Assembly: GCA_020053055.1 (NCBI GenBank)
Contig: JAGVNX010000070.1
Coordinates: 1 to 32,059 of the forward strand
Origin: Candidatus Iainarchaeum sp.
GTDB taxonomy: Archaea; Iainarchaeota; Iainarchaeia; Iainarchaeales; GCA-2688035
DNA: 32,059 nt
Reading direction: 5' to 3'
Shown in pieces: positions 16,282 through 20,950 of the stretch. Positions within the stretch are counted from its first letter, which is position 1. Each line of letters starts with the position of its first letter. Under the pieces are notes generated by a model, which saw only the letters and a program-made list of their open reading frames with translations, did no database searches and had not been told where the DNA came from. A program made the translations under genes and the position numbers.

Positions 16282-16306
16282 CCAATAACATAGGTTTAAA
16301 AATAGC

Positions 16307-16322
16307 GTGAATTATAATTCAC
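16307..16322. promoter_or_regulatory. 16-bp perfect palindrome GTGAATTATAATTCAC, probable operator of the ArsR-type gene
   Basis: Lies between a TATA-like TTTAAAAAT and the ATG at 16325. Confidence 0.65.
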
Positions 16323-16324
16323 AT

Positions 16325-16621
16325 ATGGAAAAGTGCGAGAAACAGCTTTTTTTCGGCATGTTTGCCAATAAGCTAAAAGTCCAGATTTTGGAAGAGTTGA
16401 TGGCAAGGCCAATGGGTGTTACAGAAATTTCGAACGCGGTTGATGCTGAAAGAAGCAATGTTTCACATGCCTTGCTTTCAATGAATTCCTGCAAAATTGT
16501 GGGAGTTGAACAGGATGGCAGGCAGAGGCGTTATTATTTGAACAGGGAAACTGTGCTGCCAATGATGAAGCTTGCGGAAAAGCATGTTTCAAGGAACTGC
16601 AGCAAATGCTTTGCAAAATAA
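16325..16621 (+). CDS. ArsR-family winged-HTH regulator with C-terminal CxxC
   Basis: ANKLKVQILEELMARPMGVTEISNAVDAERSNVSHALLSMNSCKIVGVEQDGRQRRYYLN...NCSKCFAK. Confidence 0.85.
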   Translation: MEKCEKQLFFGMFANKLKVQILEELMARPMGVTEISNAVDAERSNVSHALLSMNSCKIVGVEQDGRQRRYYLNRETVLPMMKLAEKHVSRNCSKCFAK

Positions 16622-17150: not shown

Positions 17151-17212
17151 GTAAGGCGATTTGATGGCTAAAACTGCCATTGTAAAGTATTTGCCGGAAA
17201 TAACTGAGTTTT

Positions 17213-17731
17213 ATGGAATTAAAAATTGATTTTTCAAACAAGAAAACAATTGCGGGGCTAATTGCGTTAGTCTGTGTAATAGCGATTATTGCTTATTTGC
17301 CTCCATTGCTTATTGCGGCAAACCCGCAAACCTGCACTGTGGACGGGGTCTGCCAGCACGAGCAAAGATTGAATTTGATAATAGAACTTGTGCCTGTTTT
17401 TATCCTAGCCGGGATAGTAATCGGCGCAGTGATTTTCTTTTTCATGGCTTCAAAGCTTGACAACAAGCAGAAAGAAATCCAAAAAGTAACTGAAACACTT
17501 GTACAATTTTTGAACAGGGATGAAAAAACAGTTGTCCAAAAAATCCTTGAAAATAATGGAAAGGTTTTTCAGTCTGAAATTTCCCGCATTGAAGGGATTG
17601 GAAAATTAAAAAGCCACCGGATTCTCCAAAGGCTTTCAGACAGGAAAGTAATTGAAATTGAAGGCCATGGAAAAACAAACATTGTAAAACTGGCAAAAAA
17701 CATTCAGGAAGCGCTAATTATAAAAAAATAA
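17213..17731 (+). CDS. membrane-tethered winged-HTH protein (two TM, cytoplasmic C-terminal wHTH)
   Basis: TM1 IAGLIALVCVIAIIAYLPPLLIA; loop NPQTCTVDGVCQHEQRLN; TM2 IIELVPVFILAGIVIGAVIFFFM; wHTH VVQKILENNGKVFQSEISRIEGIGKLKSHRILQRLSDRKVIEIEGHGKTNIVKL. Confidence 0.75.
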   Translation: MELKIDFSNKKTIAGLIALVCVIAIIAYLPPLLIAANPQTCTVDGVCQHEQRLNLIIELVPVFILAGIVIGAVIFFFMASKLDNKQKEIQKVTETLVQFLNRDEKTVVQKILENNGKVFQSEISRIEGIGKLKSHRILQRLSDRKVIEIEGHGKTNIVKLAKNIQEALIIKK

Positions 17732-17861: not shown

Positions 17862-17918
17862 GACGGTTTCAGCAAACCATATCAATGGTTTCAGCTGCTG
17901 TTTAGTCAGGTGATTTTA

Positions 17919-18623
17919 ATGAGTGAAAAAATTTCTGAAAGCAGCAGAGACTGCTGCAATAATTCAAAGGAAAAAAGTTCCCTAAAACAGGGGCTTTTGT
18001 ATGGCCTTGTCCCCCACATTGGCTGCATTGGCTTTGTTGCTGCGTCAATTTTGGGGGTTACTGTTGCAGTTGAATTTTTCAAGCCGCTTTTAATGAATCC
18101 CTGGTTTTTCTATATCCTGATTGGCATTTCATTAATGTTTGCAACAGTTTCAACAGCAATTTATTTGAAGCAAAACAACATCCTGTCAATGAAAGGGGTT
18201 CTGCGCAAAAAGAAATACATTAGTGCAATGTTTGGCTCAACAATCGGAATAAACCTGCTGTTCTTTTTGCTTATTTTTCCAATGGCTGCAAATTTTGGAA
18301 CAATTGTTTCGGCAAGCCCAAGCGGCCTTGCAATACTGCCGGAAAATAATTCAATTAGTACAATTACTTTGCAGGTGGAAATTCCCTGTTCCGGGCATGC
18401 GCCATTAATTTCAGGCGAACTCAAAAAAATACAAGGAGTGCAGGCAGTTAAATTCAATTTTCCAAACAATTTTGATGTGGCATTTGATTCAAGCAAAACA
18501 ACAAAAGAACAGATGTTTGCACTGGATGTTTTCAAGCAGTATCCTGCAAAAGTCATTTCAGAATCAAAAGCAGGGGGGAACGCAAATCTTGCACCCTTGC
18601 TGCAGCAAGTCCCCCATAAATAA
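17919..18623 (+). CDS. multi-TM membrane protein with C-terminal HMA-like domain (CxGH in place of CxxC)
   Basis: [87 protein letters not shown]. Confidence 0.65.
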
Positions 18624-18718
18624 TTCAGGAAGCCGCAGCGCGAAACAGGCTGGGCAGATGCTGCGGAGGCCCTGAAGAAACATGCGCGGATGCGGAGCAA
18701 AATAAAAAGCTGAAAATT

Positions 18719-20950
18719 ATGGAAAAAAAGTATTTTGCAATTGGAAAAATGCACTGCGCAAACTGCGCTCTTACCCTAGAAAAGGCTCTCAAAAAATTGC
18801 CAGGCGTGAAAAATGCAAGCGTGAATTTTGTTTTAGGAAAAGCAAGAGTGGATTTTGACAATGCAAAGCTTGATGAAAAAGAAATTGCAAAGGCAGTTGA
18901 AAAAGCCGGCTATGAAGTAATTTTTGGGCAAAAATCAAAAGATATTGAAAAAGAGGCAAGGGAAAAAGAAATCAAAGGATACAAAACAAAATTTTCTGCC
19001 TCTTTTGCATTAAGCACGCCCCTGGTTTTTTTCATGTTCGCAGAACTGGGTGGAATTGCATTGCCGGAAATTTTAATGCAAAACATGGCAGCAATCCAAT
19101 TTGCCCTGGCAACAATTGTGCTAATCATTGGAAGGGAATTTTTTGTTGGCGGTTTTAGGGCTATTCTGAACAAAAACCCAAACATGTTTTCTCTTGTTGC
19201 AATTGGCGTAGGGGGCGCATATGTTTACAGCCTGATTGCGAGCATTGGATTCTGGGCAGGCATTCAAATTCTGCCAAGCGAAAATTTGTATTACGAAACA
19301 GCAGCGCTTTTGATTGCATTTATTTTTTTGGGAAAATTTTTTGAGGCAAAGGCAAAAGGCAGGGCCTCAGAAGCAATAAAAAAGTTAATATGGTTGCAGG
19401 CAAAAACAGCCCTTGTCCAAAGAAATGGAAAAGAAATAATTGTGCCAATTGAAGAAGTAAAAATAGGGGACATAATAATTGTAAAGCCTGGCCAAAAAAT
19501 TCCTGTTGATGGAACAGTGATTTCAGGCCATTCAAGCATTGATGAAAGCATGGTTTCTGGCGAAAGCATCCCGGTCGAAAAAAATCTTGGCGACAAAGTA
19601 ATTGGAGCAACAATTAACAAAACCGGCTCCTTCAAGTTTTGCGCGGAAAAAATTGGTTCAGAAACTTTTTTGGCACAAATAATTTCGCTTGTGGAAGATG
19701 CACAGGCAAGCAAGGCGCCGATTCAGGCTCTTGCAGACAAAATCGCCTCTGTTTTTGTTCCAAGCGTAATGGCAACTGCAATAATTTCGGCAATTGCATG
19801 GATTTTGATTGGGCAGGGCTTTTTGTTCGGGCTTACTATTTTTATTTCAGTGCTTGTGATTGCGTGCCCATGCGCACTGGGCCTTGCAACACCAACAGCA
19901 GTAATGGTCGGCACTGGAAAGGGAGCAGAGCTTGGAATACTGATTAAGAATGCCTCTGCTCTGCAAAAAGCAGATGAAATTGACACAATTGTTTTTGACA
20001 AAACAGGAACAATCACAAAAGGCAAGCCGGAAGTAACAGACGTAATTGCCGCAAACGGCTTCGGAAAAAAAAGCATCTTGGGTTTTGCGGCAGCCGCGGA
20101 AAAAAATTCAGAGCATCCTCTAGGAGAAGCGGTTTTGCAGAAAGCAAAATCTGAAAAAATAAAAGTGATTGAACCAAAAAAATTTGCTTCTTTTTCAGGA
20201 AAGGGAGTTGAAGCGGAATTTGAAGGAAAAAAAATTTTGCTTGGAAACAAAAAATTAATGGCTGAAAATAAAGTGAACTTGGGCCTGCTGGAAAAACAAA
20301 TTATGGGTTTTGAAAATCTTGGGAAAACGGCAATGATTATTGCAGTGAATGGAAAAATTGCCGGAATTATTGCTGTTGCAGACACAATCAAAGAACATTC
20401 AAGAGAAGCTGTTGAAGCATTGCACAGAATGGGCAAAGAAATTGTACTGCTGACTGGGGACAACAAAAGAACAGCAGAGGCAATTGCAAAACAAGCTGGA
20501 ATTGAAAAAGTGCTTGCAGAGATTTTGCCAGCGCAGAAAAAAAACGAAATCAAAAAGCTGCAAAAGCTGGGAAAAAAAGTCGCAATGGTGGGCGACGGAA
20601 TTAACGATGCTCCTGCTCTGGCACAGGCGGACATTGGGATTGCAATCGGCTCTGGGACAGACATTGCAATTGAATCAGCAGACATTGTGCTTGTGAAAAA
20701 TGATTTGCGCGATGTTGTAGCCGCAATTGATTTGAGTTCATACACAATGAAAAAAATAAGGCAGAATTTTTTCTGGGCATTTGCATATAATCTAATAGGC
20801 ATTCCAGTTGCAGCAGGCGTGCTTTTCCCCTTCACAGGCTGGCTGTTAAGCCCTGTAATTGCAGGCACTGCAATGGCATTCAGTTCTGTAAGCGTTGTAA
20901 CAAATTCGCTTTTAATGAAAAGATACAGGCCAAAAATTAAAACCAGTTAA
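18719..20950 (+). CDS. copA: copper-translocating P1B-type ATPase
   Basis: [22 protein letters not shown] in [56 protein letters not shown]-terminal [11 protein letters not shown] and [13 protein letters not shown] typical of Cu(I) ATPases. Confidence 0.96.

Follow-up and report, generated by a model that had tools for sequence, protein, structure and literature searches.

Membrane-tethered winged-helix proteins with a conserved Cys/His loop are predicted regulators of copper and thiol genes in small-genome Archaea and share a TGAAAC operator

Two-component systems are few in Archaea and, to our knowledge, the sensing of metals or of the thiol state outside the cell is little understood for most of these organisms. 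ArsR/SmtB proteins, MarR-type sensors and the archaeal TRASH regulators are soluble and sense cytoplasmic metals or thiols with ligands located in or beside the winged helix-turn-helix (wHTH), not across the membrane. The ToxR/CadC proteins are bacterial and consist of an N-terminal OmpR-type wHTH, a single transmembrane (TM) helix and a large periplasmic domain. Regulators in which a TM region and a DNA-binding domain are joined in one protein, the TTRs, are widespread in bacteria and archaea (PMC10269533). In Sulfolobus, ArnR and ArnR1 activate archaellum and pili; their HTH is N-terminal and is followed first by HAMP and sensor domains and then by two TMs at the C-terminus, and no Cys/His loop is described for them (PMC6396743).

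We analyzed a 32,059-nucleotide stretch of Candidatus Iainarchaeum sp. DNA (the window; contig C4 in a draft genome of 1.12 Mb). It encodes a small protein that fits the sequence part of the TTR definition, since one chain holds both a DNA-binding domain and a predicted TM region. Its ORF is conserved in the phylum at 35–91% identity and is hence not a chance ORF; the 91% identical orthologue is found in a 'Candidatus ainarchaeum' (Diapherotrites) MAG. The protein has the following parts:

17213-17731, + strand: two-TM winged-HTH regulator of 172 residues with a DUF7343-type wHTH, an ORF with ATG start
17240-17320, + strand: TM1 helix, residues 10-36, from hydropathy and AlphaFold2
17333-17359, + strand: loop ligand motif C41-x5-C47-x-H49 (CTVDGVCQH), predicted to be extracytoplasmic, from orthologue conservation
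17375-17506, + strand: long helix, residues 55-98, comprising TM2 and a cytoplasmic stalk, from AlphaFold2
17516-17716, + strand: winged HTH, residues 102-168, from the DUF7343 match, with a MarR/ArsR-like fold

Two TM segments and no more are seen in the hydropathy profile, where windows of 19 residues exceed 1.6 when they start at residues 7-20 and 51-65. The AlphaFold2 model, obtained from an alignment with 69 relatives, has a mean pLDDT of 84, with 95-97 in the wHTH blocks, and runs from a first helix (residues 10-36) through an irregular loop (37-54) and one long helix (55-98) to the wHTH (102-168). Positive and negative charges over 20 orthologues were +2.25/-0.80 at the N-terminus, +1.0/-4.1 in the loop and +4.15/-2.95 after TM2, and from this distribution the loop is predicted to lie outside and the wHTH inside. 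The preliminary description of this ORF had read two TMs, the CTVDGVCQH loop, a linker and a wHTH from the letters and had proposed a one-component transmembrane regulator with its wHTH in the cytoplasm; hydropathy and structure model agree with the architecture, two TMs and a wHTH in one protein support the one-component reading by sequence comparison, and the charges predict the same topology.

The wHTH matched DUF7343 (PF24034) with E=2.8e-6 and 27.5 bits at a gathering cut-off of 27.6, and 67 of the 69 relatives matched the same model (E<=0.001). Foldseek returned MarR/ArsR-type folds for the wHTH (CadC, AntR, MarR), none of them with E<0.001 in the PDB. A sequence search of solved structures gave generic wHTH matches only, and Foldseek against a viral structure library gave generic HTH proteins. 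NCBIfam matches to SecY and pilin in the window were discarded as weak TM similarities. The genome encodes a paralogue on contig C63 (L002:1258-1851) with a long Cys-free loop; it adjoins an ABC transporter ATPase gene, and immediately 5' of the paralogue TGAAAC is directly repeated at 22 bp (L002:1220-1247).

Among the full-length orthologues (35–91% identity), C47 is present in 20/20, C41 and H49 in 18/20 each and E50 in 17/20, while the other loop residues mostly vary in kind and number. The preliminary description had named conservation of these ligands as a check, and they were indeed retained. C21 in TM1 is the only Cys besides C41 and C47; stalk and wHTH have none. Both exceptions, L042 (genome G032) and L054 (genome G023), have lost C41 and replaced H49 by Tyr, a joint loss as predicted for a shared ligand site. 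Judged from these alignments, the loop Cys/His residues are under strong constraint.

An operator was first spotted in the upstream regions of the orthologues and then emerged as the top dyad de novo. TGAAAC repeated at 22 bp occurred in 15 of 23 regions, compared with a maximum of one in shuffled intergenic regions. In the consensus from 22 loci, CTGAAACCATatATAtngnTTnnTGAAACCaT, both TGAAACC copies are perfectly conserved and spaced by exactly 22 bp; its right half is a palindrome with the ideal form GGTTTCATGAAACC. Read in the direction of the target gene, a TATA-like core, TATATATGGTTTCA, lies between the two half-sites. At all 22 operator loci, a metal/thiol gene on the opposite strand adjoins the motif; gene calls were simple longest-ORF calls that sometimes picked antisense ORFs, such that at L042 the target, a gene of the Cys-rich c3 family, was located by tblastn on the complementary strand and at L040 the target is an HMA-DsbD fusion beside a spurious ORF.

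Within the window, the operator and its predicted targets are:

17865-17893, - strand: operator TGAAACCATTGATATGGTTTGCTGAAACC, a TGAAACC repeat with 0 mismatches
17919-18623, + strand: the probable target, coding for a MerT-like membrane protein whose C-terminal domain is HMA-like (PCSGH), from a MerTP fusion model and the operator 26 bp upstream
18719-20950, + strand: copper-type P1B ATPase (CopA) with N-terminal HMA, TIGR01511 with 634 bits at a cut-off of 397

At up to 3 mismatches, 0.03 matches were expected in the window from dinucleotide shuffles. The site is the sole exact TGAAACC-N15-TGAAACC in the genome assembly and ends 26 bp 5' of the ATG (17919) of the MerT-like gene, which is followed by copA (18719). 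The MerT-like product matched the MerTP fusion model with E=3.9e-6, below the model cut-off, and had no Pfam match. Its HMA-like domain carries PCSGHAPL in place of CxxC; some homologues have an extra N-terminal HMA domain, and homologues also add a C-terminal Cys-rich tail. In genome G002, a second operator and MerP-like gene copy (C90:3860-4480) lie beside a truncated regulator at the contig edge, 96% identical to the window's protein over 28 residues.

The preliminary description had proposed that the regulator controls promoters such as that of copA and had pointed to four intergenic regions near 16300, 17150, 17880 and 18620. The window scan places the operator in the 17880 region and none in the other three, so that control of the gene group containing copA, through the MerT-like promoter, is supported and a site of copA's own is not; the 16300 region carries a palindrome fitting the ArsR-like gene instead (see below). 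Since the window copy sits 3' of the regulator gene, no operator is seen 5' of that gene. copA is probably downstream in one transcript with the MerT-like gene; a point against our overall reading is that no operator lies immediately 5' of copA, in the 95-bp gap at 18624-18718. The preliminary description had also suggested that the adjacent CPHC protein acts with the loop. Such a partnership would at best be a weak proposal because the CPHC gene adjoins the regulator only in three genomes of the same genus.

Operator and regulator co-occur across the phylum, a pattern that supports transcription control from the membrane. In 87 genomes, TGAAACC-N15-TGAAACC was found in 22 of the 24 with a regulator of the same loop type (type A, defined below) and in 3 of the 63 without one (Fisher p=2.5e-15, a statistic from which shared ancestry is only partly removed); the reversed control pattern matched once. 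One of the two misses, G023, has TGAAACA as a variant repeat, with spacing and orientation unchanged, and the other, G011, has a regulator fragment only. Of the three extras, G046 and G079 deviate from the full consensus, and the site in G066 lies 5' of a DsbA-type membrane gene, as in other genomes. The raw pattern matches in G046, G079 and G067:C55 were set aside as chance matches, being off the full consensus and next to apparently unrelated genes. Secondary sites precede Trx+CcdA and cupredoxin+CopZ/HMA genes in G028 and Trx-CcdA in G071. The operator does not merely track CopA: in the 35 CopA-bearing genomes, the consensus operator was present in 17 of 18 with the regulator and in none of 17 without it (p=4e-9, again with shared ancestry only partly removed). 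Genome G018 (contig C1; L108 and 509179-512265) keeps the MerT-like gene and CopA together with a type-E regulator and has no type-A operator, possibly a natural replacement of type A by type E. From these comparisons, we regard the operator as well supported, and likewise its connection with the regulator and with the targets. The ligand-poor loci still have an operator, canonical in G032 and the TGAAACA variant in G023; this retention despite loss of two of the three ligands counts against the mechanism proposed below.

Neighbours of type-A regulators recur, i.e., CopA, HMA, MerT-like proteins, HMA-DsbD-cupredoxin fusions, DsbA, DsbD, FtrD-like proteins, DUF411 and the c3 family (CEYCCGA..ACGCAH). 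A metal/thiol gene lies at most four genes away in 21 of 23 type-A loci, and metal/thiol profiles matched 36 of 132 genes at up to three positions compared with 13 of 170 at six or more (p=4e-6). A Cys-rich membrane-anchored family with CEYCCGAEYIVAPNGQPACGCAHSAAMRGLA and a C-terminal PDMVGGC (L053:1030-1794, L045:2266-3069, L044:7275-8021) has no Pfam match and recurs among the targets of type-A as well as type-E regulators.

When 389 genomes were searched with a profile, small two-TM wHTH proteins of similar build turned up beyond the phylum in many archaeal families. Five loop types were set up by us after the sequences had been seen, namely CxnCxH (A), CxC (B), YHxHFM or YHFEAM (C), Cys-free (D) and CxHGxxCxM (E). 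Partner genes differ between these types. Type B lies beside a secreted thioredoxin-DsbD fusion in 22/30 loci, type C has an HMA/CopA partner in 5/6 and type E has copper/thiol genes in 15/15. Type D has a small secreted protein family in 14/17 loci and metal/thiol genes at 0/90 neighbours. Small secreted SAYRGDY... proteins are encoded divergently from type-D regulators in many genomes (L112:1770-2255, L113:4416-4901, L116:6011-6442); the pair is possibly an envelope-stress system.

TGAAAC half-sites were found in target promoters of all five types, with type-specific geometry. Types A, C and D have the direct repeat of 22 bp, and type B combines GTTTCA-N5-TGAAAC with TGAAAC-N15-GTTTCA. Type E has the palindrome TGAAACTAGTTTCA in 14/15 loci, with one further site in all other loci together; in type E the palindrome sits 5' of the TATA region, 44-75 nt ahead of the start codon. 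A first motif scan restricted to type-E upstream regions gave nothing, and the palindrome emerged once the downstream side was added. Counted over all loci, 74 direct and inverted repeats fall in the 116 kb that lie no more than 350 bp from a regulator and 7 in the other 865 kb, and 4 of these 7 are type-A sites at farther metal/thiol targets. In a tree computed without the loop, types C and E form single clades and type A requires one or two changes, although few columns were available. Among the C and D branches of this tree, CxC loops recur: L107 and L129 have them together with Trx-DsbD partners, and L140 has a CGCHH loop and a P-type ATPase partner. Loop and partner gene thus seem to change together, on the strength of few cases and few tree columns. 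With good though not full confidence, we propose an undescribed archaeal family, found especially in small-genome lineages, of minimal membrane-tethered wHTH regulators that share TGAAAC with a geometry set by subfamily; an exchangeable extracytoplasmic loop would set the specificity and predict the regulon, whether that is copper export or copper chaperones, the disulfide machinery or small secreted proteins.

For the protein in the window, the patterns of architecture, loop conservation, operator, and links to regulator and targets stand as described above. We consider it rather likely to be a one-component membrane-tethered regulator of copper/thiol genes, probably a TATA-occluding repressor, that senses Cu(I), another soft metal or the thiol state outside the cell. 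The two TM helices would hold the short extracytoplasmic loop, with C41, C47 and H49 as a small soft-ligand site, and the long helix of TM2 and stalk would link this site to the cytoplasmic wHTH. As a dimer or a pair of dimers, the wHTH would read the TGAAAC half-sites. At 17865-17893 it would sit on both sides of the TATA-like core predicted for the MerT-like/HMA gene preceding copA, and because the operator brackets this core, bound regulator would most likely block TBP/TFB, i.e., repress. Cu(I) or soft-metal binding, or a thiol redox change, in the loop might then re-orient the stalk and release the operator, inducing extracytoplasmic copper- and thiol-handling genes, with read-through into copA. 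Cu(I) or a soft metal is our somewhat favored signal, a thiol/disulfide signal is appreciably less probable, and any other signal is unlikely; as some type-A targets are thiol genes (c3, DsbA, DUF411), copper may not be the common signal. A further point against our reading is an ArsR-like regulator in the window (16307-16621), which has a palindrome of its own and could be the metal sensor for copA.

The thiol genes bear directly on a variant with the same regulator and operator, where a C41-C47 disulfide set by the neighbouring DsbA/DsbD/thioredoxin-like proteins would set wHTH activity. Many targets are in fact DsbA, DsbD/CcdA, FtrD-like or thioredoxin-like proteins, the CxC-loop relatives have their secreted Trx-DsbD fusions, and a redox-active periplasmic disulfide is described for ToxR (PMC6242745, PMC7265457). 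However, H49 would not be needed for a disulfide, yet it is as frequent as C41 and is lost jointly with it, and CopA, HMA, cupredoxin and MerT-like genes are prominent among the targets. We hence consider a disulfide switch rather unlikely.

Another alternative is activation, in which the regulator around TATA would recruit or stabilize TBP/TFB when the signal is present. The arrangement around the TATA-like core in type A is expected to exclude TBP, although in Sulfolobus the membrane-bound ArnR acts as an activator (PMC6396743) and the type-E palindrome lies upstream of the TATA region. Activation is in our view about as unlikely as the disulfide switch, if not slightly more so.

That the TGAAACC operator belongs to an ArsR-like or TRASH/PadR regulator, and that the TM protein does something else, is very improbable. 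An ArsR-like gene does lie next door in the window, and a PadR-TRASH gene is found in the vicinity in G034 and, in G028, close to one further operator site. But the ArsR-like gene is common to only three type-A loci and has its own palindrome, the TM-wHTH gene is the only one common to operator-bearing loci, and other lineages again show TGAAAC half-sites, with five loop types. The palindrome, GTGAATTATAATTCAC, is a perfect 16-bp one (16307-16322, + strand) just 3' of a TATA-like box and overlaps the start of the ArsR-like gene; it is kept in G001 and imperfect in G002. The ArsR-like gene (16325-16621), with Cys at both ends, likely starts at ATG 16325 and not at GTG 16307, and the palindrome would fit a second, cytoplasmic metal regulator that controls its own gene. 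A remnant of a small ferredoxin-like gene (MAKTAIVKYLPEITEFYGIKN up to its stop) spans 17164-17226 (+ strand); the neighbouring species G001 has the gene intact, and in G002 it is nearly so.

A SieB-like superinfection-exclusion protein, the top Pfam match (PF14163, 32.3 bits at a cut-off of 26, residues 48-152), can be practically dismissed, since only 11 of the 69 relatives match it compared with 67 for DUF7343, and since the gene is conserved beside metal/thiol and housekeeping genes in many genomes, with a conserved operator and no phage genes nearby.

In uncultivated small-genome lineages, regulator, operator and targets could thus be defined together from sequence. The loop types lead to direct ligand predictions and form a natural loop-swap series for transmembrane signalling in a protein of about 170 residues, and the TGAAAC geometry provides a testable operator code for uncharacterised archaeal promoters.

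With the soluble ArsR/SmtB, MarR-type and TRASH regulators, the protein shares the wHTH fold, Cys/His ligands and copA-type targets; it is no ArsR/SmtB protein, however, being membrane-anchored and free of Cys in stalk and wHTH. A tethered wHTH is common to it and ToxR/CadC, including ToxR with its periplasmic disulfide, but we rejected this assignment because of the C-terminal wHTH, two TMs and short loop. ArnR/ArnR1 are also archaeal and membrane-bound, with an HTH, two TM helices and paired promoter boxes (PMC6396743), but the domain order is reversed and our protein has no HAMP or sensor domain, which excludes an ArnR. Its wHTH family matches DUF7343 (PF24034), a domain of unknown function, and our literature search, mainly of open-access papers, found no description of DUF7343, the regulator family or the TGAAAC operator. 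The likeness to TTRs is that of a one-component protein with TM region and DNA-binding domain, under a definition that is broad and without families (PMC10269533). Compared with TTRs in general, the regulator has a ligand loop of about 20 residues rather than a sensory domain, two TMs at the N-terminus, a DUF7343 wHTH at the C-terminus and an operator known from comparative analysis. The predicted regulator would therefore fit the known TTR kind, and what appears new is its operator and the family of loop types.
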